From NCBI GenBank assembly GCA_001796335.1, contig MGMF01000005.1, positions 124,001-188,000 of the forward strand: a stretch of 64,000 nt of DNA, in the 5' to 3' direction. Both the position numbers and the translations under genes were made by a program. Position 1 is the stretch's first letter. Every line of letters starts with the position of its first letter. The notes beneath the pieces are model-generated. The model saw nothing but the letters and a program-made list of their open reading frames with translations, was not told the DNA's origin and ran no database searches. The stretch comes from Chloroflexi bacterium GWB2_49_20 (GTDB lineage Bacteria; Chloroflexota; Anaerolineae; Anaerolineales; Villigracilaceae). Of this stretch, positions 2,241 through 30,328 are shown one piece after another.

Positions 2241-3815
2241 ATGAAAAGAGTTTGTCTAAGGATTTTGAGCTTCGTGATCATAGGTTCATTCCTATTGGCA
2301 GGATGCTCACAAGGCGGCGCCACACAAACGGCAACTCAAGCACCTGTTTCAACTGAAGTTGCGACCCAGGCCTCTGTAGCAACCGCAACGGAAAGTAAGG
2401 CGGGCGGTTCTCTGGTAGTCCGAATCCCTGTGGATGTAGGGAATTTGGATACACACACTGATCAGCTTCAAGCCTTTCGTAGCCTAATCCAATGGCAGAT
2501 TTATGAACCGCTGGTGGGTTATGATAAAAATGGCGTTGTTCAGGGAGTATTGGCCTTGTCTTGGGAAAATCCCCAACCAACTGTTTGGAGATTTCATTTG
2601 CGAGAAGGTGTCAAGTTCCAGGATGGTAGCAATTTCAACTCTGATGCTGTGAGATATTCTTTGGAACGGGTGAAAGATCCCAATACTGCTTCGTGGCTTA
2701 TCGGGAGCCTTTCAGATTTGCAAACGATTAGTGTAGTTGACGATTACACCATTGATCTTACTATGACCAAACCTGTCGCTTCGTTCTTGGATAAGTTATC
2801 CGTCATCGGCATAGTACCAGTAGGTTCCGGTGATCAACTGAAAAGTCATCCCGTCGGAACAGGTCCCTTTGAATTCGTAGAATACGTGCCGAATGATCAT
2901 CTTTCTTTAAAGAAAAATCCGAACTACTGGCAGCCTGGCTTACCCTATCTGGATACACTAACATATAAGCCGATCACTGATGGTTCTGTAGCATTAAATG
3001 ATCTGCAAGGCGGCACCATCGATGTCGTTACTTCTATGACTCCTAGCGAAGCTGAAAATGCAAAGACTCTCACAGGTGTGTCCCTTACTATTCAGCCTGC
3101 CACTACGTCACTCGATTTCTTCGAGATCAATCGTAGGAAAACACCTCTAAATGATCCGAAAGTTTTCGCTGCTATCTCTGAGAATTGCTTGAATCGGGAG
3201 CAAGTAGGTTCGCTAGTTTTTAAAGGCTACGGTACGGCAACCAATGTCCCCATTTTACCCAATAGCCCATTCTTCGGTAACATTCCCTATAAATACAATC
3301 CAACAGAAGGCGCGGCCGAACTTGCAGCTCTTGGGTACAAGCCAGGTGATATTAAACTGGAAATAATTTCTTGGGGTGGATATAAGACCCTTGAAGACAT
3401 GGCTGTCATTTTCAAGGAAGGCTTAGCGGAATGCGGTGTCACTGCTACTGTCAACGTCTTAGAGGTTAGTGTTATGCTCGATCGCTATAACAAACATGAC
3501 TTTGATATTGCGACCAATGCCTACGCACCGCCACTGGACCCCGACATTTACTATGATATTATCTGGGGACCGCGCTTGGCTGATGATTATGTCCGGCCTG
3601 ATGCTCAACAACTAATTGCTAACGGTGTTTCTGCTTTGACAACCGATGCACGCAAGCCATTTTATGATCAACTACAACAGTTGGAAGTGACCGATGGACC
3701 CGACTTGCCCGTATGGTTTGAAGCAGGGATTGCTGCACAAACTGATAAAGTAAAAGACGTGGTTATTGATCCCGTTAGTAACTACTACTTTCTTACGACC
3801 TACCTTACAAAATAA
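2241..3815 (+). CDS. Extracellular solute-binding lipoprotein, family 5 (peptide/nickel-type ABC importer)
   Basis: 524 residues. The N-terminus is a lipoprotein signal with Cys22 in the lipobox LAGC, then a Thr/Ala/Gln-rich linker to about residue 52. The mature part is a family-5 (DppA/OppA-like) binding protein, with the typical LSWENPQPTVWRFHLREGV and KNPNYW segments. It delivers ligand at the outer membrane face to the permease pair encoded downstream. Start at 2241 is set by AAAAGGAG at the right distance. Family-5 proteins bind peptides but also sugars and opines; the sugar-acid neighbours suggest a non-peptide ligand. A strong stem-loop separates it from the permease gene. Confidence 0.92.
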   Translation: MKRVCLRILSFVIIGSFLLAGCSQGGATQTATQAPVSTEVATQASVATATESKAGGSLVVRIPVDVGNLDTHTDQLQAFRSLIQWQIYEPLVGYDKNGVVQGVLALSWENPQPTVWRFHLREGVKFQDGSNFNSDAVRYSLERVKDPNTASWLIGSLSDLQTISVVDDYTIDLTMTKPVASFLDKLSVIGIVPVGSGDQLKSHPVGTGPFEFVEYVPNDHLSLKKNPNYWQPGLPYLDTLTYKPITDGSVALNDLQGGTIDVVTSMTPSEAENAKTLTGVSLTIQPATTSLDFFEINRRKTPLNDPKVFAAISENCLNREQVGSLVFKGYGTATNVPILPNSPFFGNIPYKYNPTEGAAELAALGYKPGDIKLEIISWGGYKTLEDMAVIFKEGLAECGVTATVNVLEVSVMLDRYNKHDFDIATNAYAPPLDPDIYYDIIWGPRLADDYVRPDAQQLIANGVSALTTDARKPFYDQLQQLEVTDGPDLPVWFEAGIAAQTDKVKDVVIDPVSNYYFLTTYLTK

Positions 3816-9224: not shown

Positions 9225-10271
9225 ATGGAAACTGAAATGATTGGCTTGTATAAAACCCAAAAAGGGGATGGGTTTCTAGAGTTACGAACGGCAAAAATTC
9301 CAAAACCAGTGGCAAATGAAGTATTAGTTGAGATCAAGGCTGCTGGAATCTGTGGAACGGATATTCATATTATGCATGATCAATTTCCATATTGGCCACC
9401 GGTTATTTTAGGGCACGAGTATTCAGGTGTTATTGTAGAAACAGGTAAGGAAGTTGAAAATTATAAGGTAAATGACAGGGTAATTGGCGAGCCTCATACG
9501 CGGGCATGTGGCAAGTGTGCACTTTGTCGATCAGGGAACATCCAATTATGTAGTCAGAAACGATCGCCTGGATGGGGAATTGATGGAGCTTTTGCTAAAT
9601 ACCTTACGGTTCCAGAGCATCTACTTCACAAAATTCCAGATTCTATGACATTTGAAGAAGCGGCACTGATTGAGCCAACTGCAAATGCTGTGCAAGATGT
9701 ATTAGAACGTGGTCAAGTGGTGGCAAATGACACTGTCGTTGTTATTGGACCAGGCCCTATCGGATTGCTCTCAATTGGAGCCGCGAAAGCAGGAGGGGCA
9801 GGAAAGGTGATTGCAATTGGAACCTCAGTAGATGAGGCTTTTCGGCTTCCTGTTGCTCTTGAAATGGGAGCAGATAACATACTCTTAGCAGATAAACAAG
9901 ATGCTGTTTCTGAAGTTATGAGGCTTACAGATGATCGAGGTGCTGATCTTGTGGTTGAGGCATCAGGATCTATGCAGGGTATCCAATCGGCAGTAAAAAT
10001 GGTTAAGCGCTTGGGTAGAATTTCTCAAATTGGTTTAACAGGAAAAGGAAATATTGATTTCCCGTGGGATGCTGCCGCGTGGAAGGTTTGTACAATTATT
10101 TTTAATTTAAGCACTGCCTTTAGTTGTTGGAACCGTTCAATTGGTTTAGTTGCATCAAAAAAGATTGATGTATCAAAGCTGATTTCCCATAAATATCCAT
10201 TATCAGAATGGAAAAAAGCATTTGAAGTGGTTGAAAAAGCAGAAGGGTTAAAGGTTTTACTCATCCCGTAA
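9225..10271 (+). CDS. Zinc-dependent medium-chain alcohol/polyol dehydrogenase
   Basis: 348 residues of the MDR family (sorbitol/threonine/galactitol-phosphate dehydrogenase group). Catalytic zinc ligands are visible as Cys in GICGTDIH and His-Glu in GHEYSG. The four-Cys structural zinc lobe is complete (CGKCALC...C), and the NAD(P) Rossmann motif is VIGPGPIGLLSIG. The enzyme oxidises a secondary alcohol of a sugar, polyol or hydroxy-amino acid. The substrate is not deducible; its place between transporter and KDPG aldolase suggests an oxidative step in sugar-acid breakdown. Confidence 0.9.
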   Translation: METEMIGLYKTQKGDGFLELRTAKIPKPVANEVLVEIKAAGICGTDIHIMHDQFPYWPPVILGHEYSGVIVETGKEVENYKVNDRVIGEPHTRACGKCALCRSGNIQLCSQKRSPGWGIDGAFAKYLTVPEHLLHKIPDSMTFEEAALIEPTANAVQDVLERGQVVANDTVVVIGPGPIGLLSIGAAKAGGAGKVIAIGTSVDEAFRLPVALEMGADNILLADKQDAVSEVMRLTDDRGADLVVEASGSMQGIQSAVKMVKRLGRISQIGLTGKGNIDFPWDAAAWKVCTIIFNLSTAFSCWNRSIGLVASKKIDVSKLISHKYPLSEWKKAFEVVEKAEGLKVLLIP

Positions 10272-10296
10272 GGAAGATAAAGGAGCACATTGGGTT

Positions 10297-11511
10297 ATGA
10301 ACAATAGCAACAAAGTTTTTCAAAACACATTTGAATTCTTGATGCAGTTGATAAAAATTCCTTCTACTCGTGGGAAAGAGGGGGAGGTTGCTAAGTACAT
10401 CTACCAGACGATTGGTCCTTATGTGGACGAGGTTGAATTAGTCCCTGTGGAAGATGCAATTATCAGTGATCCTGAATATGCTTTTTATATCCCCGACTTC
10501 ACTTATAAAAATACGTATAATGTCCGGTGCCGAATTAAGGGATCTGAGAAAGGAAAGAGGATCATCTTTAATGCTCATATGGATGTTGTTCCACCAAATG
10601 AAGGAATGAAAGATTCGTTTAACCCGCGGTATGAGAATGGAATTATATATGGCCGAGGAGCATGTGACGATAAAGGTCCATTATCTGCTCTTTTCGCGAT
10701 GGCTGTTTCTTTTCATGAAAAAGGTCAGAAGCCGAAAAATAATTTAGAGTTCCACTTTGTGGTTGAAGAGGAAAGTGGAGGTAATGGGACTTTGGCATTG
10801 ATCCGTCAAGGCGTTCATGCGGACGCCGTTGTAGTGATGGAAACTTGCGAAATGGAATTAAAAGCAGCTGTCAGAGGTGCAGTATGGTTTCAGCTTGAGT
10901 TATACGGGCAAGCTGGCCATTCTGGCTCACAGGAAACCCGAATTAGTGCACTAGATCAAGCATTCGAAGCTATACGGATTTTAAGAGATTATCATGACAA
11001 GATCTTGTCAGAATCTAAAAACTTGCCCTTATTTGACCAGTTTAAAGATCCCATGCCGTTAACCGTTGGGTTGTGCGAAGCTGGAACATGGCCTGCTTCT
11101 ATTCCTGCAAAAGCAGTCCTGAAAGGTGTTATGGGTTTTCTTCCAAATAAATCACGGCAACAAATCCAAGATGGAATTCATCGTGCTCTAAAAGAAGAAG
11201 GGAATGCATGGTTAAAAGAACATTTTAATTTGACCTTTCCAATGTTGCGGAATGAAGGTAATCAGCTTCCACAAGATCATCCACTTGTCACATCTTTTGC
11301 AAGATCTATGGAGACCTGTGGTGTCCTGCCCAAGATTACAGCTATGACAGCTTCTTGCGATGCATGGAAGTACGATAAGCTGAGCGGGATTCCTGTTATT
11401 GCATTTGGGCCTGGACGAATTAAATATGCGCATTCGGCACAGGAGCAAATCGCATTTGAAGATGTTATGACTGCTGCCCAGGTTATTGAAGATTTTAGCA
11501 ATACATTCTAA
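10297..11511 (+). CDS. M20-family metallo-amidohydrolase (ArgE/DapE/YgeY-like)
   Basis: 404 residues. The di-zinc site is intact: NAHMDVVPP (His, Asp), GRGACDDKGP (bridging Asp), VVEEESGGNG (Glu pair), VMETCE, and a C-terminal His in YAHSAQEQ. A lid/dimerisation domain with the RGAVWFQLELYGQAGHSG segment lies in the middle. The family hydrolyses N-acyl amino acids, small peptides or carbamoyl compounds. It starts 25 bp after the dehydrogenase gene and is likely in the same transcript; with a peptide-type importer it may release an amino acid from an imported conjugate. Confidence 0.9.
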   Translation: MNNSNKVFQNTFEFLMQLIKIPSTRGKEGEVAKYIYQTIGPYVDEVELVPVEDAIISDPEYAFYIPDFTYKNTYNVRCRIKGSEKGKRIIFNAHMDVVPPNEGMKDSFNPRYENGIIYGRGACDDKGPLSALFAMAVSFHEKGQKPKNNLEFHFVVEEESGGNGTLALIRQGVHADAVVVMETCEMELKAAVRGAVWFQLELYGQAGHSGSQETRISALDQAFEAIRILRDYHDKILSESKNLPLFDQFKDPMPLTVGLCEAGTWPASIPAKAVLKGVMGFLPNKSRQQIQDGIHRALKEEGNAWLKEHFNLTFPMLRNEGNQLPQDHPLVTSFARSMETCGVLPKITAMTASCDAWKYDKLSGIPVIAFGPGRIKYAHSAQEQIAFEDVMTAAQVIEDFSNTF

Positions 11512-11544
11512 ATGCTCCAAACGGTTTATCATGTGGAGGTCGTC

Positions 11545-12067
11545 ATGGATATAAAACAATGCCGAATACTATTTACACCGAGATCTTAAGGAAAGTATGA
11601 TCAAGACTAATAACCGAGCCATAGAATATAGTAGGTGAAGTAATTATTTACCCTACTGGAAAAGTGCTTTTATTGGAAGAGATAGCATGTTTGTTAACCC
11701 GGTGTTGATAGGTATTTATCTGGGTTGGACTAAATTGATCGAACTGCTTTAGATGCAGTAGGTTGGCTTTAGGTAAATTCCCATTATAAAGTTGGATGGA
11801 GAATATTAATATGTATCAGGAGAGATGGATATTTTTGTGATGAATACAACTTGAACCAACCCTACCTCATTTGCAGACCTTGCTCTGGCACTGATACTAT
11901 CCCTTCCCAGGCAAGTCCCAAATGCGGCTATTATTATTTTTGATGGTAAATGGCCGCGGCAGCAAGCGGTTGCGTACATAGATGAGGTAGTTCTCATTGA
12001 CCTGGTGGGAGGCAATATCATCCGTCATTTGGGATCGCTAGATAATTATTTGCATCCCAATGCTTGA
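11545..12067 (+). pseudogene. Decayed N-terminal half of a D-2-hydroxyacid dehydrogenase (paralogue of the next gene)
   Basis: This stretch is a ruined copy of the gene that follows it. A GGAGG site and ATG at 11545 begin MDIKQCRILFTPRS, matching the intact neighbour's MDLKSCRVLVTPTS. Further matches occur in different frames: EVIIYPTGK (NVVYNTTGR), IDRTALDAVGWL (IDRPALAAADRL), ENINMYQER, and, after a TGA at 11852, ADLALALILSLPRQ (AELTVGLILSLARK) and the Rossmann part GGNIIRHLGS. At least three frameshifts and several stops are present. The C-terminal half (catalytic Arg, Glu, His) is missing, and the remnant ends at a stop just 15 bp before the intact start. It is visibly more AT-rich than the intact gene. 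Confidence 0.8.
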
Positions 12068-12082
12068 ATGAAAGGAATCTTC

Positions 12083-13048
12083 ATGGATCTGAAATCTTGT
12101 CGGGTGCTCGTCACCCCAACCTCTTATGGAAAGACCGATGCACGTCTAATGGCTGATTTGGAGGCTAAGGTCAGGAATGTTGTCTATAACACCACTGGTA
12201 GACCACTGTCCTCGGATGAGGTGGCAAGCCTGTTGCCCGGGATGGACGGCTATATTGCCGGACTGGATGTGATCGATCGCCCGGCTCTGGCTGCAGCTGA
12301 TCGGCTGAAAGTTATTGCCCGCTATGGGGTCGGCGTAGACAATGTAGATCTGACTGCAACACATGAGAAAAACATCCGTGTGACCAACACTCCCGGAGCA
12401 AACTCGATTTCCGTAGCCGAGCTGACTGTAGGGCTGATCCTATCACTGGCGCGCAAGATCTCTGATTCCATTCTCGCTATGCGTGGCGGCGACTGGCCGC
12501 GCCTGAGCGGACTTTCCTTAGAGGGGAAGACAGTTGGGTTGCTCGGATTGGGATCCATTGGCAAACAGGTTGCCTGTCGCCTTGAAGGATTTGAATGCCA
12601 TTTGCTAGCTTACGACGTTGCAGCAGATGAAGCATTTGCCCGCGCCCACAATGTGAACTTAGCTTCGATGAGAGAGGTGGCAGCTCACGCCGATTTCCTC
12701 TCCCTGCATCTGCCACTCCTACCAGAGACGAGAGCCTTAGTCAACACTACTTTTCTGCAGGGGATGAAGTCGAATGCTTTCCTAATCAACACTGCCCGTG
12801 GAGAACTGGTCGTTGATACAGCCTTGGCGGAGGCAATCAAAAATGGTCACCTGGCAGGTGCAGCCTTGGATGTGTTTGACAAGGAACCACCGGAAGCGGA
12901 CAACCCGCTTCTTAAGTTACCGCAAGTTCTGCTTACTCCGCACATTGCGGCGCACACCGACGGGGCTCAGAATGCCATGGGCTGGATGGCCTTGAACGAT
13001 TGTCTGGCGGTCCTGTGCGGAGAGGAACCGCGCAATCCAGTAGGATAA
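12083..13048 (+). CDS. D-isomer-specific 2-hydroxyacid dehydrogenase (phosphoglycerate dehydrogenase-like)
   Basis: 322 residues. The NAD site is GLLGLGSIGKQV; the catalytic set is Arg in NTARGELV, Glu in DVFDKEPPE and His in LTPHIAAHT, in the usual order. It would interconvert a 2-oxoacid and a D-2-hydroxyacid in the cytosol. I prefer the ATG at 12083, because AAAGGA at 12071-12076 sits seven bases before it and the intact start aligns with the pseudogene start; an upstream in-frame ATG at 12068 lacks a ribosome site. The gene is GC-richer than the operon upstream and runs directly into KDPG aldolase. Confidence 0.92.
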   Translation: MDLKSCRVLVTPTSYGKTDARLMADLEAKVRNVVYNTTGRPLSSDEVASLLPGMDGYIAGLDVIDRPALAAADRLKVIARYGVGVDNVDLTATHEKNIRVTNTPGANSISVAELTVGLILSLARKISDSILAMRGGDWPRLSGLSLEGKTVGLLGLGSIGKQVACRLEGFECHLLAYDVAADEAFARAHNVNLASMREVAAHADFLSLHLPLLPETRALVNTTFLQGMKSNAFLINTARGELVVDTALAEAIKNGHLAGAALDVFDKEPPEADNPLLKLPQVLLTPHIAAHTDGAQNAMGWMALNDCLAVLCGEEPRNPVG

Positions 13049-13069
13049 CACTTTTCGAAAGGATTAAAG

Positions 13070-13726
13070 ATGAACAAACAGAAAACACTTGAGAGAATAA
13101 AAGAACTTGGCTTGATTGCAGTCATCCGGGGACCATCTCCAGAACTAACGGTCCAGATGGTAACCGCCCTTGTGGAAGGCGGGGTGCTGGGGATAGAGAT
13201 TACGTACACAACTCCCAACGCGATTGAAGTCGTGCGCAGTTTGGACAAGCAGTTCGGCGACCAGATCGTCCTCGGCATGGGAACGTTAACCGAATCTACC
13301 CAGGTTGCAGAAGCTAGAGCCGCCGGGGCGCGTTTCTTGGTTAGTCCGGTCTGTGAACCCACCTTGATTCAGACAATGGTATCTTCCGGCTTGCCGGTTA
13401 TGATAGGTGCCTTGACCCCCACGGAGGTCCTCCAAGCTTATAAAATGGGAGCGGATGTTGTCAAGATTTTCCCGGGATCTCTAGGAGGCCCAGCCTATAT
13501 CAAAGCACTCAAAGGCCCATTTCCTTATATCCCAATGATTCCGACTGGCGGCGTCTCAATAGCGAATGTCGAGGGTTGGTTTGCAGCTGGGGTTTTTAGT
13601 GTCGGCGCAGGCAGCGAACTGTGCCCACCGAACTTGGCAAAAGAAGGCCGTTTCGAGGAAATCACACTCAAGGCGACTGAGTTTGTCCAGGCAGTAATGG
13701 CTGCCCGGTCCAAAATCAAATCCTGA
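13070..13726 (+). CDS. eda: 2-dehydro-3-deoxyphosphogluconate (KDPG) aldolase
   Basis: 218 residues, the normal size for bacterial KDPG/KHG aldolase. Key residues are visible: Glu in GIEITYTT, the GMGTLT phosphate/substrate strand, the Schiff-base Lys in ADVVKIFPG, and IPTGGVS near the C-terminus. It cleaves KDPG to pyruvate and glyceraldehyde-3-phosphate (or a close analogue), the last step of an Entner-Doudoroff-type route. It follows the dehydrogenase gene by 22 bp with a GAAAGGA site, and shares its higher GC, suggesting the pair was acquired together. Confidence 0.9.
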   Translation: MNKQKTLERIKELGLIAVIRGPSPELTVQMVTALVEGGVLGIEITYTTPNAIEVVRSLDKQFGDQIVLGMGTLTESTQVAEARAAGARFLVSPVCEPTLIQTMVSSGLPVMIGALTPTEVLQAYKMGADVVKIFPGSLGGPAYIKALKGPFPYIPMIPTGGVSIANVEGWFAAGVFSVGAGSELCPPNLAKEGRFEEITLKATEFVQAVMAARSKIKS

Positions 13727-13743
13727 TCAGGAATAAAATTATA

Positions 13744-13961
13744 ATGAAAGTAACATTCACAATTGGCAAATACAACGTTATCAACAAGCAAGTCCCAACT
13801 TTTTACATCATCTGAGAGACGACTGTAAAATCATTGATCATGTAAGCCTTCCCGTTATGGGCCATTCGGATATCGTCATGGAAGACATTTGCCTAAAAAT
13901 CCATGAACAGCCGGAAGCTTTCTTATTGATTAAAACCGAGGTCAAGTATGATCCGCAATAG
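13744..13961 (+). pseudogene. Unrecognised frameshifted coding remnant
   Basis: A short reading frame begins MKVTFTIGKYNVINKQV and stops, while a different frame continues with protein-like sequence (DCKIIDHVSLPVMGHSD, then EAFLLIKTEVKYDPQ) to a TAG at 13959-13961. Together they look like one small gene broken by a frameshift. I do not recognise the family. Confidence 0.3.
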
Positions 13962-14311
13962 TTAGGCGCGCTACGATCATCATTAAAGTAGGTTTTCCAA
14001 TACCATTATACGTTTCTACTACTAATAACCCCTTGGGAAGGTGTAGCAGTTTCAGGCGAACGATACAACAACATGTTCATAATTATTACATTTAACCAGG
14101 ACCAATTGTTTCAGTGCTAGCTGTAAAGTCCAAAGTTTTCAAATGGTGAATTCTATTCTGGTGCCTAAATATTCTACAGCTATCTTACAGCTAACAGAAA
14201 AGAAACCATGGAAAACATGGAAAAAATAGACGATTTAACCACCATATATACTACTGGATAGGGAAAACAACACCAGATATACTAGGTATACAGCCCTAGC
14301 CCGTTCTCTTA
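13962..14311. other. Non-coding stretch left of the tRNA-like repeat
   Basis: AT-rich sequence with no convincing gene, promoter or RNA. The last bases before the repeat read CTCTTAA, which would fit a tRNA anticodon loop (see the repeat at 14312), but the 5' half of a tRNA is not present. Confidence 0.4.
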
Positions 14312-14361
14312 ATCAATTGGTTCGCGGTTCGAGCCCGCGGTCGGTCACCTAAATATGGGGG
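14312..14361 (+). repeat. 50-bp direct repeat, copy 1: tRNA 3' end (attachment-site-like)
   Basis: Identical over 50 bp to 30079-30128. It contains a perfect tRNA T-arm (CGCGG, loop TTCGAGC, CCGCG at 14324-14340), then a seven-base acceptor strand GTCGGTC, discriminator A and CC. The five bases before the T-arm have variable-loop size, and upstream in this copy the sequence CTCTTAA fits a Lys(CTT) anticodon loop, so identity begins around tRNA position 38. The 5' half of the tRNA is missing. This is the expected footprint of an integration site (attL or attR) left by a tRNA-targeting element. Confidence 0.75.
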
Positions 14362-14424
14362 CATAACCCCTGAACACCCCCATATATGGGTACAAAAAGA
14401 GCCTCTTTGAAAGAAGGCTCTTTT
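14353..14424 (+). terminator. Conserved hairpin plus rho-independent terminator behind tRNA fragment 1
   Basis: ATATGGGGG (14353-14361) pairs with CCCCCATAT (14377-14385). A second stem, AAAAGAGCCT (14395-14404) with AGGCTCTTTT (14415-14424), ends in a T-run. The same two-hairpin layout follows copy 2, with a different terminator stem sequence. Confidence 0.7.
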
Positions 14425-14704
14425 ATTTGATAGTTAATTGACAGTTAACAGAATCAATGGAGACGCAAATATATTTCCTGGTTTTCAAGTGAAATTATTA
14501 ATTACGCTGATCTTCTTCACTTCCATATTCACCCCAAAAGTTTCTACAAATTCATTTAGTTATCCAGCTCTTCCTCATGCCAGTTGGATACCTCAACGGG
14601 GAAATCGCCTTTTTGAAAATTTCATTTTCGAGTTTGTAATTGAAAACAAGATACAAAACGATTACTATTAATTATCTCACAGGGACCTTGTAATATATTA
14701 GATG

Positions 14705-14740
14705 TTGCAAATAATAATATCATATGTTATATTATGATAT
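14705..14740 (+). promoter_or_regulatory. Promoter with overlapping palindromic operator, upstream of the GntR gene
   Basis: TTGCAA (14705-14710) and TATATT (14728-14733) are 17 bp apart. A perfect inverted repeat, ATATCATA (14717-14724) and TATGATAT (14733-14740), covers the spacer and -10. This is where a GntR/FCD repressor would act on its own gene and perhaps the cassette behind it. Confidence 0.5.
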
Positions 14741-14837
14741 ATCACTAATGCTCTAAAAGATATCAACAGGAAGATCAAACTTGGTTATCCCATATAAAAA
14801 ATTAGTATGACGATTACGAAAAAGAAGGAGATTAAAA

Positions 14838-15539
14838 ATGGTCAAGGATCAAATTTACAAAGAATTGCGCCGCTCTATTATTAAAGGATATCTCAAGCCT
14901 GGTGAGAGACTGGACATAGTAAAACTGACCAAACATTACGAAACCAGCATTACTCCACTTCGCGATGCGATTAGTCTTCTAAGTCAGGAGGGTCTGGTTA
15001 CGATCAAGCCTCGCCGGGGTTACTTTGTTTGCCAAATCACAGTCCACCAACTAATTGACCTGTTTGAGGTTCGTGAAATTCTTGAAACAGCATCTATTCA
15101 GCGCGCAGTTGGCCGAATTACAGATGAGCAGATTGAGCAATTAACCCACGATTACACCGGCTACGATGATGATTCTTATGACCGATACATTGATGAAAAT
15201 CGACGCTTCCACTGCCTGATTGCCAAAGCTACTGGCAACGAAGAGCTGGTACAAATGATGGGTCGTGTGCATGACCTGTTAGCACGGTTCATGTTTTTGG
15301 TATTTCGTCAAACTGTCAAGACGCAGGATAAGACTCACACTTGCATCATCGAGGCACTCCAGGCGCGTGATGAAGAAGCTGTGTTGAAAGCAATAATTGA
15401 CGAGATACGCACAACTCGAGATTTTGTAATAGCTCGTGTTATGGAGGAGCAGGGCGATTCTTGGCAAATAGGAAACTTTGAAACTAGTAAATTAAAAAAT
15501 TTGGAGATTAAGATTCCGATTGTCAATTCGCTACAGTAG
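14838..15539 (+). CDS. GntR-family transcriptional regulator, FCD type
   Basis: 233 residues. Residues 1-68 form the winged helix (DQIYKELRRSIIKGYLKPGE, then TPLRDAISLLSQEGLV and KPRRGYFV). The remainder is an all-helical FCD effector domain with FEVREILE and the metal-binding-type His positions (FHCLIAKATGN, H in KTHTCIIEAL). FCD regulators usually respond to small carboxylates and repress adjacent catabolic genes. It is the first gene inside the tRNA-bounded cassette and is preceded by a palindromic operator candidate. AAGGAG supports the start. Confidence 0.9.
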   Translation: MVKDQIYKELRRSIIKGYLKPGERLDIVKLTKHYETSITPLRDAISLLSQEGLVTIKPRRGYFVCQITVHQLIDLFEVREILETASIQRAVGRITDEQIEQLTHDYTGYDDDSYDRYIDENRRFHCLIAKATGNEELVQMMGRVHDLLARFMFLVFRQTVKTQDKTHTCIIEALQARDEEAVLKAIIDEIRTTRDFVIARVMEEQGDSWQIGNFETSKLKNLEIKIPIVNSLQ

Positions 15540-15674
15540 TATTTCGCATAGAAGTTCAGGACATGGATACTTGATTCCTACTGAGCTTATTGGTTTCGTT
15601 CCTATCCCTTCATTTATTGTCTTTCGAATTTTGCACAATTAACATCACAAGCTCACTTAAGGAGATTATTAACC

Positions 15675-16325
15675 ATGGGAAATGTTTTACAGGAAATCGC
15701 ATCGAATTTATATGATGGTGAAGATAAAGGGGTGGCTGGTCTAGTACGGAATGCATTGGATTCCGATATAGACCCCCAAGAAATCCTGTCCGCTGGTTTG
15801 ATCGCTGGTATGGACAAGGTTGGTAAGGACTTCAAAGCGGGTGTGCTTTATGTACCAGAAGTATTACAGACAGCACGTGCCATGAATGCCGGTATGGAGA
15901 TACTTCGACCATTTCTGGTACAAGGTGACTCGGGCTTTAGTGTAGACAAATGCATCATTGGCACCGTCAAAGGCGACCTGCACGATATAGGTAAGAATCT
16001 GGTCAAAATGCTATTAGAGGGTGCAGGGTATGAGATAGTCGACCTTGGAACGGATGTAGGTTCTGAAGCGTTCGTGGATTCAATACGTCAACATCAACCA
16101 AAGCTCCTGGGTTTGAGTGCTATGCTGACAACAACGATGGTCTATATGAAATCCACGATCGAAGCTATAACTGCGTCAGGATTGAGGGACTCTGTCAAAA
16201 TTATGATCGGTGGAGCGCCAGTGACTGCAGAATTCGCCAAGCAGATCGGAGCCGATGCCTATGCATCCGACGCAGCAAGCGCTGTGGAAGTAGCCCGGAC
16301 GCTAGTCGCGTCAGCGACGAATTGA
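15675..16325 (+). CDS. Corrinoid (B12-binding) methyltransferase carrier protein, MtbC/MttC-like
   Basis: 216 residues. An N-terminal helical cap (about 1-85) is followed by a B12-binding Rossmann domain. The cobalt-ligating signature DLHDIG lies in GTVKGDLHDIGKNLV, with the partner motifs GLSAMLTT and GGAPVT. Such proteins carry the methyl group between a substrate:corrinoid methyltransferase and a corrinoid:THF methyltransferase, both encoded later in the cassette. The ATG follows TTAAGGAG. No RamA-like reductive activator is in the window. Confidence 0.93.
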   Translation: MGNVLQEIASNLYDGEDKGVAGLVRNALDSDIDPQEILSAGLIAGMDKVGKDFKAGVLYVPEVLQTARAMNAGMEILRPFLVQGDSGFSVDKCIIGTVKGDLHDIGKNLVKMLLEGAGYEIVDLGTDVGSEAFVDSIRQHQPKLLGLSAMLTTTMVYMKSTIEAITASGLRDSVKIMIGGAPVTAEFAKQIGADAYASDAASAVEVARTLVASATN

Positions 16326-16513
16326 TTATCCGTACCTCATCACCTCGCAAAATACACTATGAAAAATTATGGAAGCAGAGATAGGTAACAGCGATCAAAA
16401 AATGCGAGCTCGGTGGCCAATAGAAAGGAGGTCTTCCAAATAGATGTCAGCAAATAAAAAGGACTTCAATTAACTTGCAGCACTATCATAAAGAAAGCCA
16501 AAAGGAGGCAGTA

Positions 16514-18145
16514 ATGATAGACAAAAGATCAGCATTACTCTTGCGTGTTATGTCAGCCATGTTGGTTGTAAGTTTACTTGTAAGCTGCGCACCGACAGCG
16601 ACAGAAACACCTGTGGCAGGAGAGCCTACAGCTACCGAGGAACAACCCGCTCCCACCGAAGCATTACCCACTCCCACAGATGCACCAGTAAGCAAAGGTG
16701 AGCTAAAGATTGCGAGTTGGGGAGATATAAACACTTTAGATCCCGCCTTTATGACCAGCACAGAGAGAGAGTTCACTATTATGAATAGTATATATAGTGG
16801 GCTTGTTAAATATAAGGAAGGAACTTGGGATACCGTGCCGGACTTAGCCCTTAGTTGGGATATTTCAACGGATAACAAGGAATTAACTTTCCATTTACGG
16901 CAGGGTGTTCAGTTTCAAAAAGGGTATGGGGAGTTTACTGCTGCAGATGTAAAATTCTCCTTCGAAAGAATAATCGATCCAGCTCAGAATTCTCCTGAGG
17001 CATCCACATGGGATGCATTGGATCACGTAGAAATAATTGATGATTACACTGTCAAGCTTGTCCTTAAGGCACCCTCTGCCAAACTCTTCACATCAACTTT
17101 GCCTCTAAATGCGGGTTTCATCGTTTCAAAAAAAGCTGTAGAAGCATTGGGCAATGATGCCTTTGGTCTCGATCCCGTAGGAACGGGACCCTATGAGTTT
17201 GACCACTGGACTCCTGGGCAGGAAACCGTGCTCCTAGCCTTTAAGGACTACTTTGGAGCGCCGCCAAAGATAGCAAAACTGACCTTTATCCCTATACCAG
17301 AGGTTGGGACTGTAGAAATGGCGCTTAAAGCAGGTGAGATCAATGTTGGCGGGATCTCGTTGACAAGTCTTAAGGCATTCCAGGCGAATCCGGACCTAAA
17401 TGTTTACTTGAAACCTGGCCTTAAGTACTGGTGGATAGGATTTACGGTGAATACACCACCATTTGATAATTTAAAGGTTCGAGAGGCTGTTAGATACGCC
17501 ATCAATGTTGATGAAATTCTTCAAGCTGCGTTTAATGGTATCCCACAGCGAGCAAATACAATGTTCCCGCCAGGGATGCTAGGACGTTGGGAAGATGCCC
17601 CAGCTTATCAACCGGATCTTGAAAAAGCAAAAGCGCTGCTTGTTGAGGCTGGCTATCCAGGTGGAACCGGACTCAACGTCACCTTCCTGATGTGGCCAGA
17701 CGAAACGAATACTATTATTGGTGAAGTGGTTAAATCCCAGCTGGAAAAGATCGGAATAACAGTGAACGTTGTAGTGGAAGAGGTAGGATCTTTCAACGAT
17801 TCCACAACATCAGGGAAAGACAATAACTTTCATATTTCCTACTTCGCAACGACTGTGGATCCAGGATATGCCACTACATGGTTCCTTTGTGATGAAACAT
17901 GGAATCTCAGTAAGTGGTGCAATCCAGAATATGACACACTCTGGAAGCAGGCCGATGCAGAAATGGATCCCCAAAAGCGGGCGGACCTATATGTCGAGAT
18001 GCAGAAAATAATCGACAAGGATGCATGGGCAATTTGGCTTACTAATGATGTCGAGGCTGTTGCGATGCAGAAATATGTAATTCCAGGAGAACTCTTCCCC
18101 AATGGTCGACTGGCACCTTGGCAGATGGATGTGACAGAACACTAA
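16514..18145 (+). CDS. Solute-binding lipoprotein, family 5 (second importer)
   Basis: 543 residues from the ATG at 16514, which has AAAGGAGG five bases upstream; an in-frame TTG at 16475 would only add 13 residues in front of the signal. The lipobox LVSC places Cys25 as the lipidated residue, followed by a Thr/Pro/Ala-rich linker to about residue 68. The mature domain is DppA/OppA-like (LALSWDISTDNKELTFHLRQ, DPVGTGPYEF). It is only distantly similar to the family-5 protein at 2241, so this is not a recent duplication. In this setting it probably captures a methylated amine or small peptide rather than general oligopeptides. Confidence 0.92.
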   Translation: MIDKRSALLLRVMSAMLVVSLLVSCAPTATETPVAGEPTATEEQPAPTEALPTPTDAPVSKGELKIASWGDINTLDPAFMTSTEREFTIMNSIYSGLVKYKEGTWDTVPDLALSWDISTDNKELTFHLRQGVQFQKGYGEFTAADVKFSFERIIDPAQNSPEASTWDALDHVEIIDDYTVKLVLKAPSAKLFTSTLPLNAGFIVSKKAVEALGNDAFGLDPVGTGPYEFDHWTPGQETVLLAFKDYFGAPPKIAKLTFIPIPEVGTVEMALKAGEINVGGISLTSLKAFQANPDLNVYLKPGLKYWWIGFTVNTPPFDNLKVREAVRYAINVDEILQAAFNGIPQRANTMFPPGMLGRWEDAPAYQPDLEKAKALLVEAGYPGGTGLNVTFLMWPDETNTIIGEVVKSQLEKIGITVNVVVEEVGSFNDSTTSGKDNNFHISYFATTVDPGYATTWFLCDETWNLSKWCNPEYDTLWKQADAEMDPQKRADLYVEMQKIIDKDAWAIWLTNDVEAVAMQKYVIPGELFPNGRLAPWQMDVTEH

Positions 18146-18186
18146 AACATCAATTTAATTAATAAACAAGAAGTGAAATGTAGATG

Positions 18187-18245
18187 GAAGGAGACGTCAG
18201 CTAGGTTACATTTGACAGCCAAAGACTTAGTTTGACGTCTCCTTC
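18187..18245 (+). other. Intercistronic stem-loop after the second binding-protein gene
   Basis: GAAGGAGACGTCA (18187-18199) pairs perfectly with TGACGTCTCCTTC (18233-18245) around a 33-nt loop. No T-run follows. It occupies the same place, between binding protein and permease, as the hairpin at 3871 and also buries AAGGAG in its stem. Confidence 0.6.
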
Positions 18246-18477
18246 TTACAAATCTATTCTGGACAAAGTCGCGAATATCAAAGATTTTATACAAGTACTG
18301 TATGAGCGTATTATTTACACAAATAGTACTCGATAAAACTGAGATATGGTCAAATATCTATGTCTTTTACTGAGCTAAATAAGTCTGATTTCACCCAATT
18401 AGGGAGCCTCCCAAATATCTCTCCCAGACTATTATATATAATGAAACTCATGTGTACTATTTTCAGGTAGGCATATT

Positions 18478-19419
18478 TTGTTAAAGTATTTTACCAAACG
18501 CGTTCTCGGGATTATTCCAACACTACTATGTGTACTACTTTTCTTGTTCAGTTTGATCTACCTTCTCCCCGGCGATCCGGCCTCAATCATGCTTGGACCC
18601 AGGGCTACACCTACTATGGTAGAGGCATTAAATAAAAGTTTAGGCCTTGATCAACCCGTATATGTTCGGTTGGGACACTACGTTTGGGATATTTTGCACG
18701 GAGATCTGGGTGAATCCGTTTGGTCCAAACACTCAGTTGTCAACTTATTAATGTCAGCCTTACCCTACACAATAGCATTAACTTTGTCCAGCATGGGCTT
18801 AGCGGCCTTTTTCGGGATAATCATGGGAGTTTTGGCTGCGACCCATGAGAAAACTTTAATTGATCATTTGATTACTGTACTCTCGCTAATAGCAGTTTCA
18901 ATACCGGATTTTGTTGCAGCTTGTTTATTGATGCTGATTTTTGCGGTTCGGCTGCGCTTTTTTCCGGTTTTGGGAGGAGGAGAAGAGGGTAACATTGGAG
19001 ATCAGATCCGTCATTTGATCCTGCCGGTAATTGCACTTACTTTGGGTTGGCTCGGGTACATCGCTAGATTGGTAAGAGATACTACGCTTGAAATACTTGA
19101 TATGGACTATATCAAGGTAATAAAATCATTTGGTGCTCCGATGAGTTATATCGCCTTTAAATATGCCCTCAAAAATGCAATTATTCCTGTTGTTGCAACT
19201 ATTGGTCTGGGAGTTGGTAAGCTGTTGGGAGGCGCTGTATTTGTAGAACTGATCTTCAATCGGCCAGGAATCGGGAAAGTAATTACAGACGCGGTCTTTG
19301 CCCGAGATTTACCTGTGGTGCAGGGAGGAGTCCTTATTGCAGCGCTTCTATTCATCCTGGCGAATCTGGTCGCTGACCTCTCTTATGCTTACTTTGATCC
19401 GCGGATACAGTACGAATAA
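18478..19419 (+). CDS. ABC transporter permease, DppB type (second importer)
   Basis: 313 residues with the N-terminal helix and IYLLPGDPAS motif of DppB proteins, about six membrane helices and the EAA loop DYIKVIKSFGAPMSYI. The start is TTG at 18478; an AGGTAGG string lies about ten bases upstream and no ATG fits better. The next permease begins 16 bp after its stop. Confidence 0.9.
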   Translation: MLKYFTKRVLGIIPTLLCVLLFLFSLIYLLPGDPASIMLGPRATPTMVEALNKSLGLDQPVYVRLGHYVWDILHGDLGESVWSKHSVVNLLMSALPYTIALTLSSMGLAAFFGIIMGVLAATHEKTLIDHLITVLSLIAVSIPDFVAACLLMLIFAVRLRFFPVLGGGEEGNIGDQIRHLILPVIALTLGWLGYIARLVRDTTLEILDMDYIKVIKSFGAPMSYIAFKYALKNAIIPVVATIGLGVGKLLGGAVFVELIFNRPGIGKVITDAVFARDLPVVQGGVLIAALLFILANLVADLSYAYFDPRIQYE

Positions 19420-19435
19420 GAGGAAATAATTTAAA

Positions 19436-20356
19436 ATGCCCAAGAATAAAGTATTAATTGAAATCTCGCACAGATGGGATAGTTACAAGATAAAATCCCG
19501 TCTGCAAATTAAAAAAATCACCCAAGTAATTAAAGTAATCAGGCGGGAGCCTCGGGGATTAATCGGGGCTTCTATTATTGGAATAATATTATTGTGCGCC
19601 CTCTTCTCTCCTTTGATTGCACCATTTGATCCAAATGAACAAGATATTGCAAATCGCTTTTCAGTACCGTCCTCAGAGCATCTGCTAGGAACGGATTATA
19701 TTGGCAGGGATATCTTGTCCAGACTCATCTATGGTGCCAGAGCCGCTGCAATTGTATCAATATGCTCCGTTGGGATTGCAGTAATGATTGGAGTCCCTTT
19801 GGGGGCTATCGCTGCTTATAATGGCGGAATCGTTGATTATGTGGTGATTCTTATATTCGATGTGATCAGGTCTTTTCCATCGGTTATCATGATCCTAGTC
19901 CTGGCGGCAATCTTCGGACCGTCTCTTCTGAATATTATCCTCATCTTGGCATTTACGTCATTTCCAGCATACGGAAGGGTGGCCAGGGCTCAAACACTCT
20001 GTATGAAGGAAGAAGAGTCTATTTTGGCAGCTAAATCTCTTGGCGCTACCACAGGTCGGATTCTACTTCATCACATCACTCCTAATATTCTGTCACCGAT
20101 TATCGTATTAGCTGGTATGGATCTAGCTGTCATGATCATGTGGGAATCAGCCCTCTCATTTTTAGGATTGGGTCTGCAGCCACCGGCGGCTTCATGGGGA
20201 ATTATGCTGAAACAAGGATATACATACATAGAGACCGCACCTCTAATGATCATCTGGCCCGCAATCGTCCTGATAATTACAATGTTGGGCTGCTCCTTAT
20301 TCGCTGAAGTATTGCGGATCGCTCTCAACCCCAAGGAGCGTTTACCAAATGAATGA
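19436..20356 (+). CDS. ABC transporter permease, DppC type (second importer)
   Basis: 306 residues. A basic cytoplasmic N-terminus of about 45 residues precedes the first helix, then comes LLGTDYIGRDILSRLIYGAR (periplasmic DppC signature), the EAA loop (ESILAAKSLGATTGRIL) and ALSFLGLGLQPPAASWG. It overlaps the following ATPase gene by 8 bp, so translation is probably coupled. Confidence 0.92.
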   Translation: MPKNKVLIEISHRWDSYKIKSRLQIKKITQVIKVIRREPRGLIGASIIGIILLCALFSPLIAPFDPNEQDIANRFSVPSSEHLLGTDYIGRDILSRLIYGARAAAIVSICSVGIAVMIGVPLGAIAAYNGGIVDYVVILIFDVIRSFPSVIMILVLAAIFGPSLLNIILILAFTSFPAYGRVARAQTLCMKEEESILAAKSLGATTGRILLHHITPNILSPIIVLAGMDLAVMIMWESALSFLGLGLQPPAASWGIMLKQGYTYIETAPLMIIWPAIVLIITMLGCSLFAEVLRIALNPKERLPNE

Positions 20357-21344
20357 CAGCCTCTTAAGGGTGCGAGATTTGACCGTCGAGTATTCAACAC
20401 ATAAGGGTATCGGTAACGCACTCGATAATATCAACCTTGATGTTCGGGAAGGACAGGTCTTGGGTTTAGTTGGGGAGAGTGGTTGCGGAAAAACAACTTT
20501 GGGTCTCTCGATAATGAGACTTCTACCTCGGTTTGGGAGGGTAGCGCAAGGTGAGATCCTATTCAAAGAAAGAAACCTTCTCGATCTCCCAGAGAAGATT
20601 ATGAATAAGAAAATTAGGGGGAGAGAGATTGCAATGATCATTCAAGATCCCCTGCATGCATTAAATCCTGTTTTCACGATTCAGACTCAAATTATAGATA
20701 TATTGCGATTTCATAAAGATCGGCTGTTAACCACTCAATGGAAGGGAAAACAGCTCCGCAATAAAGCTATCAATATGTTGGAAGAAGTAGGAATTGCAGA
20801 TCCCTTGGAAAGACTAACCGATTACCCTTTTCAATTTAGCGGTGGGATGATCCAAAGGGTTATGGTTGCAATGGCCTTCAACTGTAATCCATCTCTATTG
20901 ATTGCGGATGAGCCAACAACTGCCTTGGATGTTACTGTCGAGGCACAGATCCTGGAATTATTAAAGAGTCTGGTAAAAAGATATGGAGCATCAGTTCTTT
21001 ATATTTCTCACGATCTGGGAGTGATCTCCGAGATAAGTGATCGAGTTGCTGTCATGTACGCTGGAAATATCGTCGAGTATGCTGATACCAAATTATTATT
21101 TGAAAACCCTGCCCACCCTTATACTGAGGCTCTGCTCCGATGTCTTCCTGGAGCTGAAGTTAGGGGTAAGCGGCTCGGAACAATTCCAGGCCGAGTACCA
21201 GATCTTACCGAACGACCCAAAGGATGTAAATTTAATCCGAGATGTCCACACGTAATGGAAATCTGTAAGGAAAAAGCACCGACTATGCTGGATATTGCAT
21301 CTGATCATTCTGTTGCCTGTTTCAGGTATGAAAACCATGAATAA
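20349..21344 (+). CDS. ABC transporter ATPase, OppD type (second importer)
   Basis: 331 residues. Walker [10 protein letters not shown]-loop [10 protein letters not shown], signature FSGGMIQRV, Walker [14 protein letters not shown]-loop ISHD. The C-terminal Cys cluster ([15 protein letters not shown]...VACF) of OppD proteins is present. It overlaps the permease upstream and the OppF-type gene downstream by 8 bp each. Confidence 0.93.
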
Positions 21345-22353
21345 GACAATTGATAAAGTACCTCTGGTTCAAGTTCAGGGGTTAAAGACTTACTTCTACA
21401 AAGGAAAAGGGATCCTTTCCAAGGTTTTTGGCAAGGGGTTACGAATTGTTCACGCAGTGGATAATGTGAGCTTTTCCATAGAGGCAGGGAAAAACTTCAG
21501 TTTGGTAGGTGAGACAGGGTGTGGAAAAAGCACTGTTGGCAGGAGTATCTTGCGTCTGGTTGAACCAATAGAAGGAAAGATCTTTTTCGAAGATCAGAAT
21601 ATATTGGAACTGGGCAAAGGAGAAATGCAGAGGTTTAGACGCAAAGCCCAGATTGTTATGCAAGATCCACGTTCTTCCCTTAATCCACGGATGACTGCAG
21701 GCGAGCTCATCGCGGAACCGTTAAGGATCCATCGGATAAAAAATTCCGAGAGAGAGATTCAAGATGAAGTTGCCCATTTACTTGAAACAGTGAGATTGTC
21801 TGGCGATGATGCTGAAAAATATCCTCATGAATTTAGTGGAGGACAGGCAAGGAGGATCGGTATAGCCCGTGCGCTGGTCCTCCGCCCGCAATTCATCGTT
21901 GCAGATGAACTTACCTCCGGGCTGGACGTCTCCATCTCTGCCGCGATCCTTGATCTGATGCAAGATTTACAGGCCCAATTCAAATTAACGTACATGTGGA
22001 TTTCTCATGATCTCCATATGGTTAAGTACATCAGCGATCATATTGCCATCATGTATTTAGGAAAGATTGTAGAGATAGGCAGGGCTCAAGATATTTCTGA
22101 AAAACCTATGCATCCATACAGCCAGGCTTTGTTTTCAGCCATCCCTAGTGTAAAACCCGGCCAGGCAACCAAGAAGATCATCCTGGAAGGAGAGGTACCC
22201 AGTCCCATCCATCCACCCAGTGGTTGCACTTTCCATACCCGTTGTCCACGGAAACTGGGCAGCATCTGCGAAGCGCAAATACCACCCTGGTTGGATGCTG
22301 GTGATGGACATCATATTTCATGCCACATTCCTCTTGAGACTTTGAGAAAATAA
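21337..22353 (+). CDS. ABC transporter ATPase, OppF type (second importer)
   Basis: 338 residues from the ATG at 21337, which overlaps the previous stop by 8 bp; an ATG at 21328 is also possible, and a TTG further upstream is unlikely. Walker A GETGCGKS and signature FSGGQARRIG are normal. The Walker B region reads VADELTSGLD, where Leu replaces the almost invariant Pro of DEP; the catalytic Glu is kept, so activity is expected. The C-terminus has the oligopeptide domain with CTFHTRCP and SCHI. Confidence 0.9.
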   Translation: MNKTIDKVPLVQVQGLKTYFYKGKGILSKVFGKGLRIVHAVDNVSFSIEAGKNFSLVGETGCGKSTVGRSILRLVEPIEGKIFFEDQNILELGKGEMQRFRRKAQIVMQDPRSSLNPRMTAGELIAEPLRIHRIKNSEREIQDEVAHLLETVRLSGDDAEKYPHEFSGGQARRIGIARALVLRPQFIVADELTSGLDVSISAAILDLMQDLQAQFKLTYMWISHDLHMVKYISDHIAIMYLGKIVEIGRAQDISEKPMHPYSQALFSAIPSVKPGQATKKIILEGEVPSPIHPPSGCTFHTRCPRKLGSICEAQIPPWLDAGDGHHISCHIPLETLRK

Positions 22354-22367
22354 AGGAGTAGAAGACG

Positions 22368-23399
22368 ATGGCTCAGATCAAACGCATCATATCAACCATA
22401 GATTCACATACCGCCGGTGAACCGACCCGTCTGATAGTTGGTGGCTTGCCTCCCCTTAAAGGTGTGAACATGGAGGAGAGAATGATGTATGCGCGCAATC
22501 ACTTGGATGACTTAAGAGGATTGCTACTCCTAGAACCACGTGGTCGTCAGGATATGTATGGCGCAGTTCTCACAACACCCACTGACCCTCAGGCAGATTT
22601 CGGCTTGATCTTCATGAACACCCAGCAATACACAACCATGTGTGGTCATGCGGTTATAGGTGCCGCAACTACTTTGGTGGAAACTGGTATGGTAAATGTC
22701 ATCGAGCCAGAAACAATCGTGACATTTGATACTCCAGTTGGTCTGGTTCGCACCCGGGTAAAAATAAATGCGGGGCGGGTTCTTGAGGTTTCTTTCGACA
22801 ATACACCAGTCTTTGCCTTTCAACTTGATGTGCACATCTCGGTCCCCAACCTGGGGGATGTGAGTGTTGATGTTGCCTACAGTGGTGGTTTTTTTGCGCT
22901 GGTGGACGCTCAAAAAATCGGACTGGAGATCGAAACAGCAAATGTGGAAGCCCTGCTTAACACGGGGATGCGTATTCGTGATGCTGCACAATCCCAACTC
23001 TCTGTTCGCCACCCAGATCTTGCTTTCACGAATCGCATCGATTGTGTTGAGTTTTGTGGTCCGACAAAGCGCCTGGAGGATGGCTCGCTATATGCTCGCA
23101 ACACCGTAATTCTAGGTAATCGGACCATGGATCGATCTCCCTGTGGGACTGGGACATGCGCCAAGATTGCGGTGCTGCATGCCAAAAACGAATTGAAAGT
23201 GAACGAAAAGTTTGTCAGCGAAAGCATCATCAACACCCGTTTTGTGGGTCAAATCATGGGTGAAACGTATGTTGGCGATATAAAAGCTATCCTTCCACGG
23301 GTTACGGGACGAGCCTACTTAACCGGCCACCACCAATTTGTCCTTGATCCTGATGATCCTTTTCAACGCGGCTTCAACCTGTTTGATTCAAATAAATAA
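22368..23399 (+). CDS. Proline racemase-family enzyme (proline racemase / hydroxyproline 2-epimerase type)
   Basis: 343 residues, the family's normal length. Both catalytic cysteines are present: the first in TTMCGHAVIG and the second in DRSPCGTGTCAK. This two-Cys pattern is that of racemases and epimerases; the related 3-hydroxyproline dehydratases have Thr at the second site. The N-terminal IDSHTAGEPTRLIVGG is also typical. It starts 14 bp after the OppF-type gene with AAAGGAG and its stop abuts the methyltransferase gene, so it is clearly part of the cassette operon. The likely substrate is proline or a hydroxy/N-methyl derivative released by the methyltransferases; specificity is inferred. 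Confidence 0.92.
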   Translation: MAQIKRIISTIDSHTAGEPTRLIVGGLPPLKGVNMEERMMYARNHLDDLRGLLLLEPRGRQDMYGAVLTTPTDPQADFGLIFMNTQQYTTMCGHAVIGAATTLVETGMVNVIEPETIVTFDTPVGLVRTRVKINAGRVLEVSFDNTPVFAFQLDVHISVPNLGDVSVDVAYSGGFFALVDAQKIGLEIETANVEALLNTGMRIRDAAQSQLSVRHPDLAFTNRIDCVEFCGPTKRLEDGSLYARNTVILGNRTMDRSPCGTGTCAKIAVLHAKNELKVNEKFVSESIINTRFVGQIMGETYVGDIKAILPRVTGRAYLTGHHQFVLDPDDPFQRGFNLFDSNK

Positions 23400-23417
23400 A
23401 TGAGGAGTAATTCGATT

Positions 23418-24866: not shown

Positions 24867-24929
24867 TACCAATAAAAAAATATATTTTGCATGAATAATT
24901 GAAATCAAAATACAGAGGAGATTATAAAT

Positions 24930-26393: not shown

Positions 26394-26525
26394 GATAATT
26401 ATTGACTCTAAAAGATGCAGGGGTACTCCGCAGATGGTGAATATAAACGTCAGCAGGCTTATTGGGTATGCCAGGCAGTGCGGTGGCTCCTTTACAGCTT
26501 CCCATATTGGCATACTAGGAGACAA

Positions 26526-27803: not shown

Positions 27804-27954
27804 TCAGAGAAAAATAGGTTGTTTAGAACCAAAAAAATAGCAAGATGTATCCTTACGATCATCAATTTATCATCGATATAACTGTCCTGCAACTGGAGAC
27901 TTAAAACCATTCTCATTCTGAATGTTATAAGTCTCGATAAACTTAGGAGAACTT

Positions 27955-28827: not shown

Positions 28828-28865
28828 AACCAAGAATCGAATTAAAGTACGAGCATTTATTAAAG

Positions 28866-28900
28866 AGGCTGCTTGCTTATTACCCGGTAAGCAGCCTTTT
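28866..28900 (+). terminator. Rho-independent terminator of the methyltransferase operon
   Basis: AGGCTGCTT (28866-28874) pairs with AAGCAGCCT (28889-28897) and is followed by TTTT. It lies between the pterin methyltransferase gene and the EamA gene, marking the end of the main operon. Confidence 0.75.
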
Positions 28901-30078: not shown

Positions 30079-30128
30079 ATCAATTGGTTCGCGGTTCGAG
30101 CCCGCGGTCGGTCACCTAAATATGGGGG
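30079..30128 (+). repeat. 50-bp direct repeat, copy 2: tRNA 3' end (attachment-site-like)
   Basis: Identical to 14312-14361, in the same orientation, and 15,767 bp away. It again contains the T-arm CGCGG/TTCGAGC/CCGCG and acceptor strand. Identity stops just left of tRNA position 38 (here the preceding bases are CTCTG instead of TCTTA), consistent with a crossover in the anticodon loop. It coincides with the change to GC-rich, core-type sequence. Confidence 0.75.
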
Positions 30129-30195
30129 TAAACCACTACAATAAACCCCCATATATGGGTATAAAAAGAGACTTTTAGACAAAGTCTCTTTTGTT
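30120..30195 (+). terminator. Conserved hairpin plus terminator behind tRNA fragment 2
   Basis: ATATGGGGG (30120-30128) pairs with CCCCCATAT (30146-30154), then AAAGAGACTTT (30165-30175) with AAAGTCTCTTT (30181-30191) and TTGTTTT. The first hairpin arms equal those behind copy 1; the terminator stem differs on both sides in a compensating way. Confidence 0.7.
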
Positions 30196-30328
30196 TTACC
30201 GCAACCTTACAGCCACCCAAAATTTCACCGAAAACTTTTATATTGGCAAATATCTCCATTCCAACGGCGATGAATCTACCGGAAAAACAAGGATCGGGTC
30301 ATCAAAACGACATTCTGTTTGACTATAT

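Follow-up and report, generated by a model that had tools for sequence, protein, structure and literature searches.

An operon in a genomic island of Chloroflexi bacterium GWB2_49_20 carries, side by side, the dead stump of a D-2-hydroxyacid dehydrogenase (hereafter DH') and an intact dehydrogenase of the same family (the live DH), which is followed by a KDPG/KHG aldolase gene (eda) and by the dead beginning of an AroE-like gene. We regard this arrangement as the probable outcome of xenologous gene displacement in situ within the island, in which a resident dehydrogenase gave way to a different version of the enzyme belonging to a DH-eda-AroE-like block (the block). Displacement is supported by the deep divergence of two once-functional genes, by the two compositional layers to which they belong, and by the lack of a second dehydrogenase label in 80 listed loci of relatives. 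The features are collected in Table 1, numbered along the window, i.e., the whole stretch of 64,000 nt analyzed here, which is part of the 203-kb contig C5 in a 28-contig draft genome of 3.37 Mb. L-numbers denote homologous loci and G-numbers sampled genomes.

Table 1. Features at the dehydrogenase site and at the island ends, in window coordinates
Feature	Position	Strand	Evidence and remarks
M20 peptidase/deacylase, last intact old-operon gene before DH'	10297..11511	+	PF01546 3.6e-30
DH', codons 1 to ~140, firm	11545..11959	+	~5 stops, 4 frameshifts; catalytic half missing
Possible further DH' to 12043 (codon ~174), then left junction	11960..12082	+	Frame continuity; not significant alone
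Live D-2-hydroxyacid dehydrogenase	12083..13048	+	PF02826 3.2e-58, PF00389 4.8e-27; ORF also called from 12068
Live KDPG/KHG aldolase (eda)	13070..13726	+	PF01081 2.2e-40; TIGR01182 187.7 bits, cut-off 156
Dead N-terminus of AroE-like gene, ~86 of ~320 codons	13744..13988	+	Alignments, GC3 0.51, spacing
Unassigned stretch holding right junction of block	13989..14305	+	AroE-like C-terminus not above shuffles
Repeat of tRNA-Lys(CTT) 3' half and terminator-like sequence, inner island end	14306..14424	+	88% over 120 bp to C5:103453-103572
Third repeat copy, outer island end	30079..30196 (C5:154079-154196)	+	86%; exact core at 30086

A dead dehydrogenase adjoining a living member of its family

The stretch upstream of the live gene is confirmed as a decayed member of the same dehydrogenase family, as an earlier note on this DNA had claimed from matches spread over three frames with stops. 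Aligned to the live protein with frameshifts allowed, 11545-12067 scores 253 (60 shuffles: mean 43.5, maximum 59) over 165 aligned columns (40.6% identical), which run through three frames with 5 stops and 4 frameshifts. At the DNA level, 11540-12067 scores 49.5 (500 shuffles: 2.4 +/- 1.4, maximum 8), tblastn gives E = 2e-13, and a search of the organism's own genome recovers it as two pieces with stops.

The firm part of the remnant is 11545-11959, which alone scores 243 against the live protein and 274-293 against seven relatives and ends at residue 140. Beyond it, 11960-12067 alone reaches at best 35 over 49 dehydrogenases (15 shuffles: mean 33.5, maximum 42), while 11950-12082, which takes in the preceding WPR codons, scores 52 against a shuffle maximum of 48, and alignments with many relatives extend to ~12043, i.e., codon ~174. 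Hence, of the ~170 matching codons first described, ~140 are firm and the remainder is only possible; likewise, the dead frame does stay open until the TGA of 12065-12067, which leaves 15 bp to the better live start at 12083, but the homology that had been said to end there is firm only to 11959. The left junction is placed within 11960-12082. The loss of the old gene's C-terminal half is borne out, with homology stopping at codon 140-174, ahead of R239, E268 and H287, which are invariant in 6 sequences and which we take to be the catalytic residues of the live DH. The latter carries both domains, PF00389 and PF02826. DH' follows the M20 gene after a gap of 33 bp and the live DH comes after DH', so that the two occupy the same operon position.

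The live DH probably starts at 12083 rather than at 12068, because 3 of 5 homologues begin, in the alignment, at the corresponding Met and the other two start within three residues of it; an AAAGGA seen by eye at the end of 11960..12082 could be its ribosome-binding site. A cupin remnant between DH' and the live DH was considered, as a cupin precedes the dehydrogenase in relatives, and rejected: none of 39 cupins scores above 29, and shuffles reach 34. Neither the DH' C-terminus nor an old eda was found in 13989-14305 or 14430-14837, where scores of 24-33 were obtained without a shuffle control.

The live pair and the dead third gene behind it

A contig scan for homologues of the live DH yielded at least 449 confirmed loci, the best 80 of which were kept. 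Among these 80, the nearest are from Anaerolineae, with 72% identity at best (L052); in trees the live DH is sister to the dehydrogenase of L052 (SH-aLRT 96) and the live eda lies beside the eda of that locus, a position given without a support value. In 31 of the 80, the first label after the dehydrogenase is that of an eda homologue, several loci stopping at contig ends, and a second dehydrogenase label (E <= 1e-15) is found in none. Close homologues of the live DH (at least 57% identity) occur in only 6 of a sample of 149 other genomes from the family and order; one of the six is a fragment and 2 are from the host's own family (G052, G042), and it is from this scarcity that the block looks patchy and mobile.

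The gene that stands behind eda in relatives has ~320 codons, lacks a Pfam match and weakly matches shikimate dehydrogenase (TIGR00507, 9.5e-8 and 2.3e-9, far below the cut-off). We drew 24 eda loci from 30 matches, leaving out L027, L030, L077 and L084; an AroE-like homologue lies downstream of eda in 21 of them, at 34-130 nt in 19 of those. In Anaerolineae, it is this gene that usually comes third, behind the dehydrogenase and eda. Its N-terminus survives here as a remnant: 13744-13988 scores 125-164 against the AroE-like proteins of 11 relatives (30 shuffles, scored with L067: mean 39, maximum 57), with 3-4 stops and 1-3 frameshifts, and is the genome's sole match to that family at E <= 0.01. 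A conserved motif lies 68 nt past the eda stop, compared to 69 in L052 and 57 in L067. Pfam was empty for one frame of the remnant, and its tree placement is uninformative, the ten top-scoring positions differing by no more than 0.5 log units. In 13989-14305, the rest of the AroE-like gene scores no better than shuffles, and the DH C-terminus and eda reach 24-32, without shuffle control; a search of the rest of the genome for a TatD-like gene as a partner of the block, run without a positive control, gave no match. What had been described as the landing of a dehydrogenase-aldolase pair thus stands insofar as DH and eda are joined to DH', but the block is longer and includes the dead third gene.

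Two compositional layers

That the live DH and eda are GC-richer than the surrounding operon, as had been pointed out from the letters, is seen both in overall GC (0.54 and 0.52 vs 0.37-0.45 in ten upstream ORFs of the window) and in GC3 (0.55 for each vs 0.28-0.41). The two dead genes fall on opposite sides of this divide: DH' matches the old operon, and the AroE-like remnant matches the live pair. To 12043, DH' has a GC3 of 0.34 (bootstrap 0.27-0.41), with seven old-operon genes at 0.28-0.35. Its firm part (41/135 = 0.30) does not differ from ten old-operon genes, a set that includes the gene at 2241-3815 (1135/3414, p = 0.52), and is separated from live DH plus eda (297/539, p = 2.7e-7) and from the AroE-like remnant (39/76, p = 0.0032). 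The GC3 of the latter, 0.51 (0.39-0.62) from only 72-81 codons, differs from the ten old genes (p = 0.0013) and agrees with the live pair (p = 0.54). For both remnants, GC3 is nearly unchanged with other guide sequences.

Divergence, decay and phylogeny

DH' and the live DH differ at codon positions 1/2/3 by 0.43/0.21/0.64 in the firm part and by 0.44/0.24/0.63 to 12043, with a second-position excess of DH' over the live gene of 0.06-0.10 (firm part, seven relatives) or 0.09-0.14 (to 12043). DH' thus retains the signature of divergence under function, and its decay is shallow. A recent tandem copy is excluded by this combination of deep and shallow change: the third positions are 63-64% different, against a second-position decay excess of only 0.06-0.14. 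The AroE-like remnant has a second-position excess of 0.13 when guided by L067 and 0.20 by L052, so that the two dead genes need not have decayed equally; the killing of both dead genes in one event would be compatible with the data. As the genome is a draft of 28 contigs, an assembly chimera or sequencing errors might be invoked for the lesions, but this is very improbable indeed with the site inside a 203-kb contig, the AroE-like remnant continuing the block at normal spacing, and ~9 disabling lesions in 135-165 codons accompanied by the elevated first- and second-position differences of real decay.

The trees do not decide the ancestry of DH', and the case therefore rests on composition and divergence. 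A quick tree joins DH' with L067, L071, L072 and L074 (SH-aLRT 100, with a long-branch warning), and placement on a fixed tree, with DH' past ~11992 left out as misplaced by MAFFT, favors L088, L073/L083 or the L067 group as its neighbors. A position sister to the live gene is 6.2 log units worse and is not rejected (p-AU 0.13; 2000 resamples, fewer than the program advises), and in a separate test a tree holding live and dead together came out 8.2 log units above the quick free tree. The 63-row tree leaves out L104 and L114-L131, while the placement and live/dead-together tests used L052-L093 plus the live and dead copies. DH' was also considered as a member of mostly deltaproteobacterial operons with a related kinase (L094-L101, L106) and rejected: they score 173-208, compared to 305 with L067 and 247 with the live gene.

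The same tests give some room to an old tandem duplication in place, whereby DH' and DH would have stood side by side, both long functional, until DH' died: holding the two together is not rejected and even outscores the quick free tree, and the p-AU of the sister position is 0.13. We nevertheless hold this to be distinctly improbable, as DH' equals the upstream operon in GC3 and differs from the live copy (p = 2.7e-7), the two genes are 0.63-0.64 apart at third positions, a distance like that between remote lineages, and none of the 80 listed loci (the best 80 of at least 449) has a second dehydrogenase label.

An island at tRNA-Lys(CTT)

The low-GC operon belongs to an island whose ends are marked by 3' fragments of a tRNA-Lys(CTT) gene. 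The genome has three strong copies of the repeat, all of them on one strand of C5, seven other hits being short and at chance level; the first copy is part of an intact tRNA-Lys(CTT) at C5:103423-103496. A phage-type integrase adjoins this tRNA (C5:103613-104428; PF00589, 1.4e-29; ORF of 271 aa). The catalytic domain is the only one that Pfam detects in its ORF; the integrase may be truncated and the island may no longer be mobile. The old low-GC catabolic operon comprises a kinase, an RraA-like protein, a peptide-type ABC transporter, an alcohol dehydrogenase (ADH) and the M20 enzyme.

In 2-kb steps, GC is 0.39-0.42 over the operon (C5:116000-136000), 0.39-0.54 in the preceding part of the unit and 0.40-0.49 in the second unit, compared to 0.44-0.56 across most of the flanking DNA (C5:86000-104000 and 154000-188000; one step 0.38) and 0.34-0.46 farther left (C5:76000-86000). 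The GC of the live pair (0.52-0.54) is ordinary for the chromosome flanks. This speaks against regarding the GC-rich pair as the obvious stranger: the pair is of Anaerolineae type and within the flank range, whereas the GC-poor operon is island DNA. GC3 does set the intact genes apart from the old operon, and phylogeny places both beside the Anaerolineae-type L052, but in GC they are not foreign-looking relative to the flanks. Of the gene replacement by a foreign pair proposed in the earlier note, displacement by a different version survives on the strength of the divergence and the two layers, while the direction of movement is something we only infer.

A relative that keeps the old operon together with an undamaged DH' did not turn up: M20 matches at E <= 1e-60 are only 33-34% identical and come from 5 of 399 other genomes in one phylum sample. 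Searched through M20, the old operon was likewise not found in plasmids, all 538 records being below 60% identity (28-30% among the matches listed). Nor did an empty site turn up: around the Rpe-like gene of 29 relatives, no tRNA-Lys lies closer than 1.5 kb, a reach that would miss the repeat even in the host genome. Rfam over 13600-15000 gave five matches, none reaching the gathering score, and a promoter/terminator scan of 10200-14900 gave 13 and 5 sites (shuffles: 9.3 and 4.2).

Several other parts of the island and its surroundings can be described. The second unit (window 14425-30078), lying between two tRNA-Lys fragments and with no integrase noted in it, codes for a GntR/FCD regulator and an MtgC-like corrinoid protein and, by eye, for a peptide-type ABC transporter, a proline racemase-type enzyme and two MttB-like methyltransferases; it is possibly a betaine demethylation module. 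Two large reverse-strand ORFs at C5:110430-116313 resemble, by eye, a type III restriction-modification pair (RE_endonuc 7.4e-6 in the scanned part of the second ORF), and their GC of 0.49 and 0.54 forms a further compositional layer of the island. The catabolic genes start with a 5-deoxy-glucuronate isomerase-like gene (C5:117892-118722; TIGR04378 206.7 bits, cut-off 205), which suggests sugar-acid or inositol-type substrates. In the mostly deltaproteobacterial loci L094-L101, L106, L107 and L113, a related dehydrogenase lies near a kinase 46-51% identical to that of the island, with L095, L097 and L106 also having an ADH 44-50% identical to its ADH; such loci are a possible source of the old operon. 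Just beyond the outer island end, two genes at window 30887-32379, RpiA- and Rpe-like by eye, have GC3 values of 0.75 and 0.80, a sharp step in composition.

A proposed scenario for the probable displacement

Under the displacement that we favor, an island integrated at tRNA-Lys(CTT) carries a low-GC catabolic operon that would once have ended in its own dehydrogenase, DH'. A DH-eda-AroE-like block from another Anaerolineae lineage, by then already far from DH', would have been joined inside DH' between codons ~140 and ~174, plausibly by illegitimate recombination, with the join deleting the remaining part of DH' including the catalytic residues. The new DH and eda would thereby have come to lie downstream of the old operon, in a position that permits co-transcription with it. 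The DH' stump and the AroE-like gene, cut at codon ~86, would have decayed afterwards, both decays presumably beginning with that single event, while DH and eda stayed intact.

We take the block to have moved to the operon. The same displacement with the opposite movement, i.e., with a block that was at home near the tRNA-Lys repeat and a low-GC operon that was moved up to it, for example by a deletion fusing DH' to the block, seems to us unlikely, although the block is of Anaerolineae type, has a GC within the chromosome-flank range, and sits at the distal end of the unit, at most ~320 bp from the tRNA repeat. Speaking against a resident block are its position inside the repeats rather than outside them and its own patchy, mobile appearance, close DH homologues being found in 6 of 149 genomes.

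Relation to known systems and implications

Omelchenko et al. (2003, Genome Biol 4:R55) are said to have described how an operon gene can be replaced in place by a horizontally acquired version, giving rise to an operon of mixed origin. The present case differs from that type in that a dead stump of the displaced gene survives and in that the incoming dehydrogenase brought eda and a piece of a third gene along. In situ displacement has mostly been argued from conflicting trees, the old gene being gone. The process is called xenologous gene displacement, and in situ displacement if it occurs inside an operon; the cases described for Thermus and Deinococcus were identified by phylogenetic analysis (PMC1274311). 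Here, by contrast, the tree does not decide, and the argument is borne by the remnant and by composition. The process itself is hence already known, the case being new and well preserved.

For Anaerolineae with a genomic island and tRNA-Lys, our literature search found no paper. A parallel might be struck with Dehalococcoides, which is a genus of the Chloroflexota. Its islands are described as having repeated tRNA 3' fragments and recombinase genes, with a repeated island at tRNA-Lys in strain 195 (PMC2764846). The present island resembles them in its repeated 3' tRNA fragments and recombinase-type gene; on the other hand, its cargo is sugar-acid/peptide-type catabolism with a restriction-like region, in place of the reductive dehalogenases described there, and the repeat here takes in the downstream terminator-like sequence (PMC2764846).

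With remnants on both sides of the live pair and two layers close together, the order and extent of the event become partly readable. The site also illustrates how GC contrast alone misleads: the GC-rich pair seemed foreign, yet it is the surrounding GC-poor operon that sits in an island. More tentatively, we can envisage successive, independently acquired enzyme versions occupying one slot of an island operon, with one illegitimate join having killed both the resident and the newcomer's third gene and left two shallowly decayed remnants. If this is true, islands at this tRNA would renew their catabolic cargo by block-wise displacement, in events datable via paired remnants.
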